In this document: piece after piece, positions 8,937 through 15,690 of the stretch
How the letters are laid out: each line of letters starts with the position of its first letter
Position numbering within the stretch: the stretch's first letter is position 1
Origin: Gammaproteobacteria bacterium
GTDB taxonomy: Bacteria > Pseudomonadota > Gammaproteobacteria > Poriferisulfidales > Poriferisulfidaceae
NCBI GenBank assembly: GCA_026713705.1
Contig: JAPONY010000018.1
Coordinates: forward strand, 1 to 33,529
DNA length: 33,529 nucleotides
Direction of reading: 5' to 3'
Made by a program: the position numbers and the translations under genes
Notes under the pieces: generated by a model
What the model saw: the letters and a program-made list of their open reading frames with translations, nothing else
What the model was told of the DNA's origin: nothing
Database searches by the model: none

Positions 8937-9320
8937 TCAGTGCAGGGAATGGGGGGTGGACAGAGTAAACGCGGGGATTTCGGCGTCGAAGCAAGTGCCG
9001 TCGTCACCCAGCATTTGGTAAGACCCGTGCATGGAACCCACCGGGGTCTGCAGGACTGTGCCGGAGGTGTAGCGGAAGGTTTCGCCCGGAGCCAGGTACG
9101 GCTGTTGCCCGACAACGCCCTCGCCATGCACTTCCTGGCGGTTCTCGGCACCATCGAGAATGATCCAGTGCCGGCTGACCAGACGCGCCGGCAGGCTTCC
9201 CGTGTTGGTGATGGTGATGGTGTAGGCGAAGACGAAACGGCTGTCGTCCGGCTCGGACTGCTCCGGTAGAAACTGGGTCTCTACTTGAACATCAACATTG
9301 TAATCCTGTGCGGAAGACAT
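8937..9320 (-). CDS. apaG: ApaG protein (DUF525)
   Basis: 127 residues of the ApaG fibronectin-III-like fold, with FVFAYTITITNTG, the SRHWIILDG strand, VVGQQPYLAPGE and PVGSMHGSYQM. ApaG has been associated with Co2+/Mg2+ efflux in Salmonella, but its biochemical role is unclear. In most relatives it directly follows rsmA. Here about 5.5 kb of accessory DNA separates them, and a TATAAT at 9353-9358 could give apaG-apaH its own promoter. Confidence 0.95.
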   Translation of the reverse strand: MSSAQDYNVDVQVETQFLPEQSEPDDSRFVFAYTITITNTGSLPARLVSRHWIILDGAENRQEVHGEGVVGQQPYLAPGETFRYTSGTVLQTPVGSMHGSYQMLGDDGTCFDAEIPAFTLSTPHSLH

Positions 9321-9450: not shown

Positions 9451-9759
9451 TCAGCCGAGCGCGTCGAGCCCCTTCTGATCAACGAGGTTGAGCAATTTGA
9501 GAGAGGGGCCGTTGGGTTGTTTTTTACCCTGTTCCCATTTTTGCACGGTGGACGGGCTGGCATTCAAATAAGCGGCAAAGACCGCCTGGCTGGCCTTGCA
9601 ACGCAACCGCAATTTTTTGATTTGGCTGGCACTGTAGATTTTGACAGGCGACAAACACAATGCATCGAACTCACGCATCGTGGTCGCATTCATCGCGCCC
9701 GCCTTGTGCAAGCCTTTCGCTGTCTCGTGAACAGCTTCCAAAATTGGTTTACTCGCCAT
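9451..9759 (-). CDS. HigA-type antitoxin with helix-turn-helix domain
   Basis: 102 residues. The C-terminal half is a Xre-family helix-turn-helix (about residues 46-92: SASQIKKLRLRC ... AVFAAYLNASPSTVQKWEQG) followed by the PNGPSLKLLNL tail typical of antitoxins paired with RelE/HigB toxins. It should neutralise the preceding toxin and repress the operon. The start overlaps the toxin's 3' end by 11 bases, so toxin comes first, the HigBA order. Its likely operator is the inverted repeat at 10143-10165. A partial second copy of this gene lies at 10166-10262. The module looks intact. Confidence 0.87.
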   Translation of the reverse strand: MASKPILEAVHETAKGLHKAGAMNATTMREFDALCLSPVKIYSASQIKKLRLRCKASQAVFAAYLNASPSTVQKWEQGKKQPNGPSLKLLNLVDQKGLDALG

Positions 9760-10129
9760 CTTTCTTTACCTCCATCAGTTCTTTCGCATCAAGTGCTTTT
9801 TCAATTTGCGTCTCGTCATAACCCAGCAGGTCCTCTGCTAGCCGCCGCAATGCTCTGAGTTCAGAATCAGAGATGGTCGCGCGGGCTTTCTTGGCGAAAC
9901 CGTAAACGAAGAACATGCGATTGTGATCCCGTTTGAACACGAGCAAGATTCGCACACCGCCACTTTTGCCCCTGCCGGACAACGCGACTCGTTTCTTGAA
10001 CACATGTCCGCCAAGGTCGGCATCGACCAGACCACGTCGCACTTCCTCGACCGCCGTGAGAAGACTCGCATCAGTTAGCCTTTCCTTGCTTGCCCAACGA
10101 TGAATCCACCGAGTCTTGAAAATACGCAT
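9749..10129 (-). CDS. RelE/HigB-family toxin
   Basis: 126 residues from the ATG at 10129 (MRIFKTRWIHRWASKE). The pattern (TDASLLTAVEEVRRGLVDADLGG, then GKSGGVRILLVF, then MFFVYGFAKKARATI) matches the RelE-like toxin family of PF06296 type, which cleave mRNA at the ribosome or are predicted to. The frame is open to 10225, but those first residues are the decayed antitoxin remnant and a -10 box lies inside it. The ATG at 10141 would precede the expected transcript start, so 10129 is preferred. The leader would then be only about 5-7 bases with no Shine-Dalgarno. Confidence 0.87.
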   Translation of the reverse strand: MRIFKTRWIHRWASKERLTDASLLTAVEEVRRGLVDADLGGHVFKKRVALSGRGKSGGVRILLVFKRDHNRMFFVYGFAKKARATISDSELRALRRLAEDLLGYDETQIEKALDAKELMEVKKDGE

Positions 10130-10142
10130 GGCATGACACATA

Positions 10143-10165
10143 AGTATAGCATTTAGTGCCATACT
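10143..10165. promoter_or_regulatory. Inverted-repeat operator for the antitoxin
   Basis: AGTATAGCA (10143-10151) and TGCCATACT (10157-10165) are inverted copies matching at 8 of 9 positions, separated by TTTAG. The 23-bp dyad covers the -10 box and most of the spacer, where a helix-turn-helix antitoxin dimer would block RNA polymerase. Autoregulation is inferred from the family. Confidence 0.65.
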
Positions 10166-10172
10166 ATTGCAA
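10143..10172 (-). promoter_or_regulatory. Promoter of the toxin-antitoxin operon
   Basis: On the minus strand TTGCAA (10172-10167) and TATACT (10148-10143) are separated by 18 bases. The -10 ends 13 bases before the toxin ATG, predicting a near-leaderless mRNA. The -35 sits at the edge of the decayed antitoxin fragment. The operator below overlaps the -10 and spacer. Confidence 0.65.
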
Positions 10173-10262
10173 GAATTGAGAGAGGGTCCACCGGGCCGGT
10201 TTTTCCTCTGTTCCCACTTCTGCACGGCTGATGGAAGATTATGCTGCCCTGCCTTGAAGTCC
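10166..10262 (-). pseudogene. Remnant 3' half of a second HigA-type antitoxin gene
   Basis: Minus-strand translation from about 10262 gives REDFKAGQHNLPSAVQKWEQ followed by RKNRPGGPSLN. This aligns without gaps to the intact antitoxin (VFAAYLNASPSTVQKWEQ, GKKQPNGPSLK). The DNA match is also visible around the VQKWEQ and GPSL codons. There is no start codon or first helix, and the frame runs on into the toxin promoter region. The upstream end lies within about 12 bases of the helicase gene stop (10274), as if that gene's insertion cut off the rest. Confidence 0.7.
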
Positions 10263-10273
10263 TCTCGAAAAAC

Positions 10274-13200
10274 TTATTCTTCCAACGGTATTGCCTCGGG
10301 CAAGGCGCAAAGCGCGTTTACTAGCCGCACCTGCTCCGCCGTCGCGCAATTCGCATGCAGAAGCTGCGGAGACGCAAAAACCAGACTCAACCCTTGGCCT
10401 CGGCTGACCGCAACGTTGAGTCGTTCGCGCGAAAGCAGGAAACTCAATCCGCGGGAGGTCTCCTCCGCCGTCGAGGCGGTCATTGAGACCAAAGCGACCG
10501 GCGCTTCCTGCCCCTGAAACTTGTCGACAGTGCCAACGCGAATGCCAGGCAAGGCATCGGAAAGCGCGTTCACTTGCGCATTGTAGGGCGCAACCACGAT
10601 GATATCGCTCTCGCGGAACGGACGTCGGTTTCCGTTTCGATCGGTCCAAGCGCCCGCCAACAAGCGACCGATCGTTTCGCGCACGGCCTCCACTTCCTCG
10701 GGGCTAATCTGCGCGCGTCCCTCGTGGACGACCGGCACACGCCAAGCGCCCGCGGAAGGCAAGCCCGAGACCTCGACAGACTGAAGCTCGGTAGATGGGT
10801 GGTTGCGCAGTCGCCCCTCATAGAATTGTGCTGAAATGTAGGAACAAAGGTCGGGATGCATTCTCCGGGTTTCCGGCAGGAAGATGCCGTGCTCTGGATC
10901 AACGTTCCTTCCCTCTCCCAGCATCCAGTCGAGGCAGGAAAGATTGGCCGGATGCGGGTGTGCGCCCTGAGTGACCTGCGGCAATTGGCGGGGATCGCCG
11001 ATCAGGACGAGATTAGCAGCCGCATTCGACATCGCAATCAGGTTGGCCAACGGAACCTGCCCGGCCTCATCGATGAAAAGGCAATCGAAAGCGCTCCGAT
11101 GCTCATCCCGCGAGAAAAGCCAAGCCGTCCCGCCAACGACCTGGGCGGAGTGGAGCGCGGCGGCTTGATTGCTTGTCACGCAGGAAACCGCTTCCTTGTA
11201 TTCCTGCGAGAGGTCGCCCTGACTCGAAACCTTGTGAGCAATTTTCACATCGCCGACGGCCAGGCCGGCATCCTCTTCGCACAACGCGCGGGCGCATTCC
11301 GCCAAAACGTTGCGGATCGCCTCATGGCTGTTCGACGACACCGCGATGCGCCTGCCGTCCCGAACCAGCGCGAGAATCGCGCGTGCCGCCACATAGGTCT
11401 TGCCGGTGCCGGGTGGCCCCTGAACCGGGAGGACGGACCGGTCTAGGATCCGTGTCGCCTTGATCAGGCCCTGAAGCGCCCCGACACTCTCGTCCAGGGG
11501 AAGCGGCGACGGGCCGCGGAAGCGGGGGGGATTGCGCGACAGGACATCTTCGGCCGCCTGATTGCGGCGGGAACCGCATTGGTCCTCCGCGACCCTCCGG
11601 ATCGCCGCAGGAATCGGCCCCGGATTCAGGGCGAATTCGGGGAGGATATCCATCCGGTCGGGGAGCGGCGCGCCACGGCTGGGATTCAGGCAGATTTTCC
11701 GACGGTGCCGGTCAAGTTCGTTGATCTTGGCTGAGGCAAAGCCATCCTGTCTCGCGAACAGGGCGGATTTCCCCGCCCGCAGTTTCGTTTCCTGCGGCGG
11801 ATAGCGGTACTCGCGCCCGCCCGCGCCCGCCCTGCCGGATGCGACCAAGCCGGCCAGACACTCCATGTCGTCGCAAAGTTCCTCGAAGTCCTTCTCCGCG
11901 GCATCGAACACGGCCCATGCCTGAGGTTTCTTCTCTCGCCAGTGGAACACGCCTAGGTCGTAGAGCAGGCGACGACGCTCCTCCGGCAGGCCGGAAGCGG
12001 CGAGAAGGTCCGCAAGATTTTCGTTTTCTTCCTGCTCGCCTGCCGACCTGGGTGTCTCCCCTTCCCCGGCTTCGGGCCAGGAACCTTCCGCCCGGATCCC
12101 GAGCAGCCAGTCGCGCAGTTTCGCAAGCGATATGCAGTCGAGGCGGTTGTAGTCCTCGATTGCCGCGAGAACCTCGGCCTCGCCCGTCTCTCGCCACTTC
12201 TCGTAGGCCACGATCGAGTCCCCGGCGGACGCGACCGCCCCGTCACGGTCCAGATCGTAAAAAATCTCCAGATCCTTGAGCGAATAGGATGGTTCGGACG
12301 CGAAGATGCCTCCCCGTACGACGGCGTAGAGGTCGACAAAGCGCCGCTCCCGCAGCCAGCAATCCAGTTGCACCTCGCCCAGGCCGTGCCGCATGGCCAG
12401 CTGGCGCAACGCGGTGCGTTCGTAGGGCGCATAGTGATAGACATGTGCGCCGGGATGGCGCGCGAAGTGCTCCTCGAACCGGCGCAACAGGGATTCCAGT
12501 GCCTTCTTCTCTTCCACGCGGTCATGCGCCCAAAGGGCGGCGAATGCCCGTCCGTCCCAGATGCCGTGGAGATACTCAAGACCGTCCAGACCCGCCTCGG
12601 CGTAGTACGGATCCCCTTCGATGTCGTAGAAAAGGTCTCCGGGATCAGGTCGCGGCATCAGATCAAAGCCTTTCCCGAGGGCGGAAGGCCGCAGCTTGAA
12701 CGAAGGCTCGCCGGTCTTGCGGGCGTGTTGGAGCTGGGCTTGTTCACGCAATTTCTCCGCCGTCTCGTCGGCAAGCTCGGGAACCTCGCCTTCATGTCGG
12801 GCAAGCGCCTCCATCGTTCGGATCCCGGTCGCCTCCAGCTTGCCAGCTTGGCTTCTCCTGATTCCGGCGATCTGGTAAAGGCTGTCCGTCTTCCTCCACT
12901 CCTCGGCACAATGTTCCCGCCAGCGGCAGAGATCACAGAACGGACACGGAACCGGGCGAGTGGGCGGGGGCGCCTGAACAAACGCCTCAAAGCGGGTGCG
13001 CACGAAGCGTGCGTAGTCCGAATACTCCGCCAGGCGAAGGGTGGTCCGCTCGCCTGAGCCGAGCTGGATATGGGCACATTCCGGCGCATGGCCCTGAACT
13101 TCGGAGAGAAGGTCGGAGTAAAGCGCCAACTGGAGCACATGATCCGGAGCGGGCTTGCGTTTCAGCTTTGTATCCGTAACCTCGTAGGAAAACGACCCGA

Positions 13201-13573
13201 GTTTGGACGGCACCGGCACGCGCTCCAGGAAATCCGCATAGCCGCCCCACACCCCGCCTGCGAGCGCGCCCTGATAAACGATGTCCGGGCCGGCCGCCAA
13301 AGCTTTGCACGTGGCATCCACCGATTCCTCAAGGGAGACATTCTCTGTCTCGACACGCACGACTGTCTTTCCCTCGGACTCAAGCCGCGAAAGATATTCG
13401 GCCTCATGCCGCTGCCCGCGCTCCTGCAGCAACTCAGTGCCTTCACTGTCTTCGACCGGCTCAAGATCCTCTCCCTGGAGATAGGCGAGATCGAGTCTTG
13501 ACGCATGCGGGCAGGCGGTGAACCGCTTGAGATCAGAAGCCGACAGGCGGATTCCTTCGCCATCCCTTTTCAT
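10274..13573 (-). CDS. RecB-like nuclease / RNase H-like / SF1 helicase fusion (TM0106 family)
   Basis: 1,099 residues with three modules. (1) Residues 1-225: a PD-(D/E)XK RecB-type nuclease with GYADFLE (Asp114), EVTDTKLKRK (Asp134, Lys136) and Q148..Y152, plus cysteines at 21, 210, 213, 216 and 222 that could hold an Fe-S cluster. (2) About 310-490: a ribonuclease H-like domain with FYDIEGDP (Asp317, Glu319), RFVDLY (Asp415) and YNRLDC (Asp479). (3) About 690-1080: an SF1 helicase with Walker A GPPGTGKT (719-726), FIDEAGQ (Asp835, Glu836), GDPRQLPQVTQG and LSRERLNVAVSRG. All catalytic motifs look intact. The ATG at 13573 overlaps, as ATGA, the end of an rsmA 3' fragment. Cellular role is unproven; DNA repair or defence is inferred from the domains and the accessory location. 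Confidence 0.88.
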   Translation of the reverse strand: MKRDGEGIRLSASDLKRFTACPHASRLDLAYLQGEDLEPVEDSEGTELLQERGQRHEAEYLSRLESEGKTVVRVETENVSLEESVDATCKALAAGPDIVYQGALAGGVWGGYADFLERVPVPSKLGSFSYEVTDTKLKRKPAPDHVLQLALYSDLLSEVQGHAPECAHIQLGSGERTTLRLAEYSDYARFVRTRFEAFVQAPPPTRPVPCPFCDLCRWREHCAEEWRKTDSLYQIAGIRRSQAGKLEATGIRTMEALARHEGEVPELADETAEKLREQAQLQHARKTGEPSFKLRPSALGKGFDLMPRPDPGDLFYDIEGDPYYAEAGLDGLEYLHGIWDGRAFAALWAHDRVEEKKALESLLRRFEEHFARHPGAHVYHYAPYERTALRQLAMRHGLGEVQLDCWLRERRFVDLYAVVRGGIFASEPSYSLKDLEIFYDLDRDGAVASAGDSIVAYEKWRETGEAEVLAAIEDYNRLDCISLAKLRDWLLGIRAEGSWPEAGEGETPRSAGEQEENENLADLLAASGLPEERRRLLYDLGVFHWREKKPQAWAVFDAAEKDFEELCDDMECLAGLVASGRAGAGGREYRYPPQETKLRAGKSALFARQDGFASAKINELDRHRRKICLNPSRGAPLPDRMDILPEFALNPGPIPAAIRRVAEDQCGSRRNQAAEDVLSRNPPRFRGPSPLPLDESVGALQGLIKATRILDRSVLPVQGPPGTGKTYVAARAILALVRDGRRIAVSSNSHEAIRNVLAECARALCEEDAGLAVGDVKIAHKVSSQGDLSQEYKEAVSCVTSNQAAALHSAQVVGGTAWLFSRDEHRSAFDCLFIDEAGQVPLANLIAMSNAAANLVLIGDPRQLPQVTQGAHPHPANLSCLDWMLGEGRNVDPEHGIFLPETRRMHPDLCSYISAQFYEGRLRNHPSTELQSVEVSGLPSAGAWRVPVVHEGRAQISPEEVEAVRETIGRLLAGAWTDRNGNRRPFRESDIIVVAPYNAQVNALSDALPGIRVGTVDKFQGQEAPVALVSMTASTAEETSRGLSFLLSRERLNVAVSRGQGLSLVFASPQLLHANCATAEQVRLVNALCALPEAIPLEE

Positions 13574-13588
13574 CGCGCCATCTCAAAA

Positions 13589-13637
13589 GCCTGAAACAAT
13601 CGCACGAATTCCTCGTTCGAAAGTTCCTCGGCCCTTC
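13589..13637 (-). repeat. Duplicate of the rsmA 3' end
   Basis: These 49 bases match rsmA positions 14939-14987 at 46 of 49 positions, in the same orientation. The copy still encodes NEEFVRLFQA and continues to FEMAR and a TGA that overlaps the ATG of the helicase gene. The two copies are direct repeats 1,350 bases apart and flank the DUF4268 gene. They look like a 3'-end target duplication or the scar of recombination between two rsmA alleles. Confidence 0.85.
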
Positions 13638-13658
13638 CTTCACAGTTCGCCACGAACC

Positions 13659-14843
13659 TTATGCACCAAGATCTTCGACGATGCGCTTGATTCGATGACG
13701 GAACACGTTCACAAAACGATTGGATATGTCCGCGAGAAAGTCCTTGATCTCGGTTCGGTAGGTTGGATCCATCAAACCAGGGAATTTTTTGCTTGAACCA
13801 ATCCAGTGTCTTCCATCTTCTGAAGTCCACTGCACAGGAATGCCAAGTTCCTCTTCAATCCGATCCTTGTCTTCTGATAGCTGCTCAAAAATGCGATTCC
13901 CGAAATTGCCGCGGTAAGCAGTCAAGTACGCACCCACACGGCATTCTTTCTGTACAAAGTAAAGCGCAATCCAAATATCCGAATGCGGCATCCTGAAAAA
14001 TACATTTCCAGATTTTGTCAGGTTCGGATGCGGCTGATCCGGATCATCCAACTCAAGGTCGTCGATTAACTCTTTCCAGAAGTCCTGGTAGAACCGTGCG
14101 GAATCACTCAATTCGGATTCGAGTCCCTCTTCATCTTCATCAGCCACGAGACCCTCGGACTCAAGACTGACGACCGTGCGCTTGACAATAACTGATTGGG
14201 CGAGAATGCGCGGCTGGACGAGACGCCGCCCTTCAGGCATTTCGTACATCGCGACCTCGACCAAGCCGAACGTGAAATGGAGCGTGCCCTGCCGCTGCAG
14301 AAAATCCGTGATTGCGGTCACACCCTCGCGGATGCCGTCGCCGCAGATCAGCAACAGAAACCGGCCATAGCGAAGGCTACGGGAAACCTCATCAACGAAT
14401 TCGGCTTCGGTCAAACTGTCGGAGGTTTCGGCAGCAGCGACAATATCGAATAATGCGTTACCGCTACGCCCGGTACGCCGCGACACTTCCCGCTGCAAGT
14501 CTGCATAAGTCAAACGACTCAATTCCTTCGCATAGTCGAGAATTTGTCCGATCACCGCTCGTCTCGCCTCCGGGTTCCGCCAGAGCTTCGTTTCAAGGAT
14601 AATCAGTCTGCCTTTCGGCGTCGCCAGCAACGCATCCATAGGACCGGCTGGCGTGTTCAACTCCTTGCAAATCGGTATGGCGGGGGCAAATGTCCGGTCG
14701 ATCTCATTAATCGGAAGCGCTTCGGGGTGCTCGAACAGCAGGTCCTGAAGCCACCCCTCATCGTATTCGGCTGAAGTCGGTTGCAGGCTTTCCGTAGAAC
14801 CGTCGGGGCCTACGATAATTGGCATAGCGTCTCGCGAGGACAT
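13659..14843 (-). CDS. PD-(D/E)XK-like protein with DUF4268-type C-terminus
   Basis: 394 residues. The N-terminal half resembles a PD-(D/E)XK nuclease core: PMDALLATPKGRLIILETKLW gives Asp70, Glu84 and Lys86, followed by Gln100 and Tyr104 in a helix. The C-terminal part (IWIALYFVQ ... YRGNFGNRIFEQLSEDKDRIEEELG ... VQW) resembles DUF4268, often found in accessory and defence-linked proteins. A very acidic linker (residues about 232-248) separates them. The start at 14843 has AAGGTG 5 bases upstream. It lies between rsmA and the rsmA duplicate, so it is the most recently inserted piece. Nuclease activity is inferred from the motif only. Confidence 0.72.
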   Translation of the reverse strand: MSSRDAMPIIVGPDGSTESLQPTSAEYDEGWLQDLLFEHPEALPINEIDRTFAPAIPICKELNTPAGPMDALLATPKGRLIILETKLWRNPEARRAVIGQILDYAKELSRLTYADLQREVSRRTGRSGNALFDIVAAAETSDSLTEAEFVDEVSRSLRYGRFLLLICGDGIREGVTAITDFLQRQGTLHFTFGLVEVAMYEMPEGRRLVQPRILAQSVIVKRTVVSLESEGLVADEDEEGLESELSDSARFYQDFWKELIDDLELDDPDQPHPNLTKSGNVFFRMPHSDIWIALYFVQKECRVGAYLTAYRGNFGNRIFEQLSEDKDRIEEELGIPVQWTSEDGRHWIGSSKKFPGLMDPTYRTEIKDFLADISNRFVNVFRHRIKRIVEDLGA

Positions 14844-14886
14844 TTTTCACCTTCGGGTCATTCGAATGCTGGTGCAGTGGGGCATT

Positions 14887-15690
14887 TTACGGCGAGGCTT
14901 CAGCGGGCGGGGCGGCGGCTTGCCCTTTCTCCCGAATCGCCTGAAACAACCGCACGAATTCCTCGTTCAAAAGTGCCTCGGCCCTTCGCCCGGAATCGAT
15001 CTCTGTCTCCGCCCACACCGAATCCGGGATTTCCGGCAGGTTGTTGCGCAATGTCTTCCGCCGCGATGCGAATGCCTGCCAAACTAGGCGCATGAAATCC
15101 GTCCGTTCCTCCTCCCTTATGGGGAGAGACTCCTTGGGTAGAAGTCGCACCACGGTGGAGACAACCTGGGGAGGCGGCTCGAAGCATTCCGGCTCGACGT
15201 CCAGCAACTGTTCGACCTGCATCAACAACTGAACGGCCACCGACAACTGCCCACGGGACGAATCACCTGGCGGAGCAGCAAGCCGCTGTGCGACTTCGCG
15301 TTGCACCATCACGGTCAGATCCGCCAAATGTGTCCGCAACTCCATCCAACGCTGCAACAATGCGGTCGCCACGTTGTACGGCAGGTTGCCCGCAAGTCGC
15401 AAGCCTTTCGGATACGCCGACAGATCCTCGTGCAGCGCATCCGCGCAGCGGATCGTAACTCCGGGATTATCGGCAAACTGGTGTTCCAGGTATTCGGCGA
15501 GAACCGGATCCTTCTCGACAGCGATGAGGTGTCGTGTCTGCCCTGCCAGCGGGAGCGTCAACGCGCCCCGGCCAGGACCGATCTCGACCAAGGTGTCGCT
15601 CGGCCCGATCGCGGCGGCGATCTCCTCGATCTTTGCCGGATCGGAAAGGAAATGCTGCCCCAGGCGTTTTCGCGGCGGCGGCAGGGCCAT
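14887..15690 (-). CDS. rsmA: 16S rRNA (adenine1518-N6/adenine1519-N6)-dimethyltransferase
   Basis: 267 residues matching KsgA/RsmA: RKRLGQHFL at the N-terminus, the AdoMet motif VEIGPGRGALT (35-45), and catalytic NLPYN (102-106). It dimethylates two adjacent adenosines in the 3' terminal helix of 16S rRNA. The C-terminal NEEFVRLFQA segment is duplicated at 13589-13637. After it, this copy ends in an Ala/Pro-rich tail (IREKGQAAAPPAEASP), unlike the FEMAR ending of the duplicate. So one of the two ends has been replaced or has drifted. It starts 3 bases after the PNPOx-like gene. Confidence 0.97.
   Translation of the reverse strand: MALPPPRKRLGQHFLSDPAKIEEIAAAIGPSDTLVEIGPGRGALTLPLAGQTRHLIAVEKDPVLAEYLEHQFADNPGVTIRCADALHEDLSAYPKGLRLAGNLPYNVATALLQRWMELRTHLADLTVMVQREVAQRLAAPPGDSSRGQLSVAVQLLMQVEQLLDVEPECFEPPPQVVSTVVRLLPKESLPIREEERTDFMRLVWQAFASRRKTLRNNLPEIPDSVWAETEIDSGRRAEALLNEEFVRLFQAIREKGQAAAPPAEASP
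14939..14987 (-). repeat. rsmA 3' end, in-gene copy of the 49-bp direct repeat
   Basis: This is the rsmA copy of the 49-bp direct repeat (46/49 identical to 13589-13637). Two of the three differences change an amino acid (Ala to Glu, Leu to Ser) and one is synonymous. Confidence 0.85.

Follow-up and report, generated by a model that had tools for sequence, protein, structure and literature searches.

The window, a 33.5-kb stretch of DNA that forms one entire contig of a fragmented assembly (1.94 Mb, 98 contigs) of the sponge-associated gammaproteobacterium Candidatus Porisulfidus, carries two types of rsmA ending in tandem, one completing the present rsmA gene and the other displaced to a position in front of a helicase gene. 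We consider it likely (probability of about 0.8) that a resident chromosome in which rsmA ran straight into the helicase gene acquired, through recombination inside its rsmA 3′ end, DNA that bore a helicase-free rsmA end followed by a DUF4268 gene. The join between the two allele types probably arose by homologous recombination at the 3′ terminus of rsmA, with no integrase involved.

According to the original prediction, a 49-bp segment of the rsmA 3′ end recurs in direct orientation with three mismatches and brackets a single gene. On recomputation the coordinates, orientation and mismatch count all proved right: the two copies (Table 1) are identical at 46 of 49 bases, are offset by 1350 bp, have a longest exact common run of 18 nt, and bracket a 1.3-kb segment that encodes the DUF4268 gene alone. 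The copy in rsmA is near the end of the gene but not at its extreme 3′ end, as rsmA continues for another 52 bases to position 14887 and is still complete despite the repeat. When every 49-mer of the window was compared exhaustively with every other in the direct orientation, no other pair reached 42 identities, shifted versions of the repeat aside. The displaced copy lies between the DUF4268 and helicase genes, all on the minus strand, and both its predicted reading frame, VANCEGRAEELSNEEFVRLFQAFEMAR, and the overlap of its terminal TGA with the helicase ATG (ATGA, positions 13570 to 13573) were borne out. A search of the assembly yielded these two places and no third copy, and in the relatives G002 and G004 rsmA was the sole match, all other hits being at chance level. 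No further copy was found in the genus, nor at other insertions in the assembly and the relatives searched, where one had been thought worth looking for. Family scans of the genes in the region found neither an integrase nor a transposase, in agreement with the earlier remark that no integrase is present.

Table 1. Features of the rsmA-apaG region of the window, in the order of the minus strand
Feature	Positions	Strand	Basis
rsmA (ksgA), 16S rRNA dimethyltransferase	14887..15690	-	TIGR00755 above cut-off, PF00398
49-bp repeat, copy within rsmA	14939..14987	-	repeat comparison
rsmA tail, helicase-free allele type ('E' tail, AIREKG...)	14912..14938	-	17/28 to G004 in register
DUF4268 gene, N-terminal D...ExK nuclease-like motif; PDC-S11 candidate	13659..14843	-	PF14088, PADLOC PDC-S11
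21-nt joint, DUF4268 stop codon to duplicate	13638..13658	-	sequence
49-bp repeat, displaced copy of rsmA 3′ end	13589..13637	-	repeat comparison
Possible 27-codon mini-ORF (GTG start), keeps stop-start overlap with helicase	13570..13653	-	reading frame only; translation putative
rsmA tail, helicase-bearing allele type ('H' tail, AFEMAR*), ending in ATGA overlap	13570..13588	-	19/28 to G001, 16/28 to G003, 8/28 to G004
TM0106-type RecB-like nuclease / SF1 helicase fusion	10274..13573	-	TIGR03491 above cut-off, RNase_H_2, AAA_11/AAA_12
HTH antitoxin 3′-end remnant	10176..10234	-	76% to 9497-9555
RelE-family toxin ORF; toxin domain from about residue 33	9749..10225	-	PF06296, E 2.9e-43
HTH antitoxin; 3′ end surviving also in G001	9451..9759	-	HTH_3 above cut-off; G001 alignment
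apaG, far border of variable spot	8937..9320	-	NF003967

The nearest relative of the window is G004 (92% in rsmA), while G001, G002 and G003 form a second clade (79 to 80% to the window) and G005 is less closely related (61% identity in the rsmA protein). In G004 and G002, which lack the helicase, rsmA is followed by apaG after a gap of ∼57 nt that is intact, common to both and alignable throughout, and in G005 the two genes are adjacent or overlap. Directly consecutive rsmA and apaG genes were also found in 13 of the 13 order-level relatives for which both genes were within reach, the gaps in all these genomes ranging from −35 to +57 nt. The adjacency is therefore ancestral, and the E. coli cluster surA-pdxA-rsmA-apaG-apaH has the same order. 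The helicase is itself an insertion into this ancestral pair, present in the gap in three of the five close genomes, whole in the window and G003 and as a remnant in G001.

G003 also provided what the original prediction had proposed to search for, a strain in which rsmA overlaps the helicase gene directly. In G003, rsmA (terminus ...EEFVRLFQVSGALR) ends ...GEEFVRLFQVSGALR*, and its TGA overlaps the first codon of the helicase as ATGA. This genome has no DUF4268 gene at the locus, and the helicase is followed by apaG, with spacing below 100 nt. In G001, rsmA has an ending of the same kind (...EEFVRLFQALGVAQ), after which come ∼106 bp of decayed helicase 3′ end, a nucleotidyltransferase (NTP_transf_2) gene, a shortened HepT-like gene and then apaG. 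The nucleotidyltransferase/HepT pair seems to have taken the place of a RelE-type pair. The truncated HepT-like gene reads on in frame into the final 23 codons of an HTH antitoxin resembling that of the window.

The same two core genes thus border differing accessory content across related genomes: the DUF4268 gene, helicase and toxin-antitoxin genes in the window, the helicase in G003, the remnant with NTP_transf_2 and HepT-like genes in G001, and nothing in G004, G002 and G005, with antitoxin sequence in the gap in two of the five close genomes. In this genus, defence and toxin-antitoxin genes turn over in the rsmA-apaG gap. We considered it as a general hotspot and rejected the idea, as the six wide gaps inspected in other Gammaproteobacteria appeared by eye to hold ordinary housekeeping genes and not defence genes; at five loci of other Gammaproteobacteria, rsmA and apaG lie 2 to 12 kb apart with genes of that appearance inside. 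Within the window, a 59-nt copy of the antitoxin 3′ end, 76% identical to positions 9497 to 9555, separates the helicase from the RelE toxin, so that a cassette in this spot is again bracketed by the remnant of a gene end.

Two sets of data indicate the order in which the genes arrived. The helicase of the window is 81% identical to that of G003 at the amino acid level, with at most 39% elsewhere in the class sample, and the dS between the same two genomes is 0.86 for the helicase, 0.88 for rsmA, 0.78 for apaH and 1.00 for pdxA. Because its dS matches that of neighbouring core genes, the helicase would have been present before the two clades split, or have been exchanged at about that time. 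The DUF4268 gene occurs at the rsmA-apaG locus only in the window among genus members (G001 has a weak match of 27% elsewhere in its genome), and its G+C content of 52.9% is set against 62.8% for the helicase, 61.9% for rsmA and ∼62% for the surroundings. Since the helicase is chromosomal in both dS and G+C, and the DUF4268 gene is found at this locus in the window only and is G+C-poor, we conclude that the helicase came first and the DUF4268 gene later. The direct coupling of rsmA to the helicase, proposed as the earlier state, is seen in G003, and the later arrival of the DUF4268 gene is backed by independent genomes, dS and G+C; no relative lacking the DUF4268 gene was found with both copies of the repeat. 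What needs refining is the view of the copies as simply a target duplicated by one insertion, as they lead into two allelic endings; the insertion would have brought along a helicase-free type of rsmA end or recombined with one.

Beyond the repeat, the present rsmA continues as GATTCGGGAGAAAGG..., like the helicase-free G004 (GATCCAAGAGGAAGG...) and G002, whereas the displaced copy continues as TTTTGAGATGGCGCGATGA, like the helicase-bearing G001 and G003. Over 28 nt compared in register with G004, the present tail is identical at 17 positions and the displaced tail at 8 (Table 1), and the match of the present tail is equalled at a fraction of only 0.00016 of window positions. The helicase-bearing allele has its own last rsmA codons, ending at or near the stop-start overlap. 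We also considered whether the gap between rsmA and the DUF4268 gene is homologous to the rsmA-apaG gap of G004 and rejected this, as similarity beyond the first 28 nt was not significant (shuffle P of 0.1 to 0.35). At positions 14887 to 14938, rsmA no longer has the stop codon of its G004 and G002 counterparts and has gained the C-terminal extension QAAAPPAEASP.

Both 49-bp copies carry a window-specific AA at rsmA positions 724 and 725, found in no other relative, and four clade-marker bases common to the window and G004 against G001 to G003. Because these markers are in both copies, the duplicate is taken to be the old rsmA end of the window's own lineage and not one imported with a helicase from the other clade. 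Simple target duplication is unlikely since the present rsmA has the helicase-free ending, unless the insert carried that ending. Recombination is also apparent in G002, whose rsmA is G003-like (25/26) up to position 726 and G004-like from 727 (24/26, compared to 19/26 for G003). The 7 mismatches to G003 among positions 727 to 752, with 5% expected, have a binomial probability of 0.0003, a value drawn from five genomes and short tracts. In this other lineage, too, a helicase-free end and a helicase-type end have therefore been exchanged, in one direction or the other, inside the same 26 bp. Together with the tail switch in the window, this partner switch constitutes a recombination signal in the flanking core gene rsmA.

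We propose that the event would have started from a chromosome of the window lineage with rsmA overlapping the helicase. Incoming DNA with a helicase-free rsmA end and then the DUF4268 gene would have recombined with it inside the rsmA 3′ end, such that resident rsmA, incoming tail and DUF4268 gene became joined and the old rsmA end was stranded before the helicase as a scar. No integrase would be required, as the observed product could come from one crossover with a circular molecule and equally from unequal recombination. The scar may owe its persistence to the helicase start region and the stop-start overlap that it contains. Several points weigh against this scenario. A donor with the DUF4268 gene behind a helicase-free rsmA end was not seen; the tail match is limited to a short stretch of 28 nt, albeit in register and rare by chance; the copy within rsmA has a helicase-type base at rsmA position 749, which places the crossover in the last few bases or calls for conversion; and both allele types seem to date back to the clade split, which presupposes repeated exchange. 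The assembly is fragmented, the window being one whole contig, and the 1.3-kb segment also fits a small integrative or transposed unit mobilized by an enzyme in trans.

Such a unit would be a small integrative element with the DUF4268 gene as cargo, site specific for the rsmA 3′ end, with the two copies as attachment sites and its integrase acting in trans or since lost. This would explain why direct repeats are found at the 3′ end of a gene and why there is a single, G+C-poor cargo gene, and because integration supplies the gene tail from the element, also for the changed tail beyond the repeat. We nevertheless regard it as unlikely: the segment has no integrase, the repeat is nowhere else in the assembly or relatives, the DUF4268 protein is on no annotated phage record, and the present tail resembles a chromosomal helicase-free rsmA of the same genus, not foreign sequence. 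Of the earlier hint at integrative elements, the direct repeats at a gene 3′ end stand, but an element is not needed and found no direct support.

The copies could instead be the remains of an ancestral tandem (rsmA, spacer, second rsmA end, helicase), with the spacer since deleted in G003 and G001 by repeat-mediated recombination and the island gone from G002 and G004. A deletion of that kind would leave precisely the arrangement of G003, and both tail types are present in the window; the copies, however, share the window-specific bases and differ at 3 of 49 positions, compared to 11 or 12 differences across this stretch between the window and G003 (binomial probability of 0.001 to 0.007). 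The duplication therefore looks younger than the clade split, unless the copies were converted. With the DUF4268 gene also missing at the locus in all other members and the one common gap of G004 and G002 intact, we find an ancestral tandem highly improbable. Least credible of all is a misassembly that merged two strains into a chimera, rsmA-DUF4268 coming from one and rsmA-helicase from the other: the 98 contigs and the two tail types from two allele types would suit it, but the longest exact shared run is below usual assembly k-mers, no shared sequence covers the joint at 13637/13638, and the duplicate itself is of the window's lineage.

The scar includes the helicase start region with the ATGA overlap, and a possible 27-codon mini-ORF starts five bases past the DUF4268 stop codon. 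Judged by this reading frame, stop-start coupling to the helicase could possibly have continued after the DUF4268 insertion. A broader proposal, in which the rsmA 3′ end is a recurrent recombination joint throughout the genus and the displaced piece was selected as a translated leader preserving helicase coupling, appears doubtful to us.

The DUF4268 protein matches PDC-S11, a candidate single-gene defence family in PADLOC, with E values of 1.5e-13 to 8.8e-6. Its homologues have a conserved D-x(n)-ExK in the first third of the protein, a motif typical of PD-(D/E)XK nucleases. One homologue in Rhizobium adjoins a cytosine methyltransferase with Vsr and one in Bosea is near a CRISPR-associated gene, both on plasmids. 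DUF4268 has also been reported as an extra domain in GmrSD-type restriction proteins (PMC4619093). An antiphage function is likely; the window protein resembles PDC-S11 in having both the profile match and the DUF4268 domain, although PDC-S11 is a candidate family only. No homologue was found in annotated phages and no match among solved structures. Two IMG/VR viral contigs encode relatives of its N-terminal part (33 to 37%). We also looked for the gene beside rsmA elsewhere; the only good relative in the class (49%) is on a 6-kb contig with no apparent rsmA.

Integrase-free small defence spots are common, while a trace of how a gene gets added to one is rare. Here, sister genomes provide empty, helicase-only and decayed states, the order of insertion can be read from sister species with and without the older helicase gene, and the scar shows two allele types stacked and not one replaced by the other. 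The case lends support to simple recombination at the end of a core gene as the route by which such spots grow. Compared to integrative elements at gene 3′ ends, the window likewise has a direct repeat of the gene 3′ end flanking an inserted segment and a restored gene, but it differs in having no integrase, a single cargo gene, a repeat that does not recur and a tail that is a genus-specific chromosomal allele. Oliveira et al. (2017) found that many hotspots are without integrases and that their flanking core genes recombine more (PMC5635113). The rsmA-apaG spot resembles these hotspots in its variable accessory genes between fixed core genes, with cargo differing per relative, in the lack of an integrase and in a flanking core gene that bears marks of recombination. 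It differs in its small size (0 to about 5.6 kb) and in the tandem stacking of two allele types, with a displaced core-gene piece as a readable scar. It is a clear example of a known process, the turnover of defence genes at a hotspot flanked by core genes, and not of a new kind.
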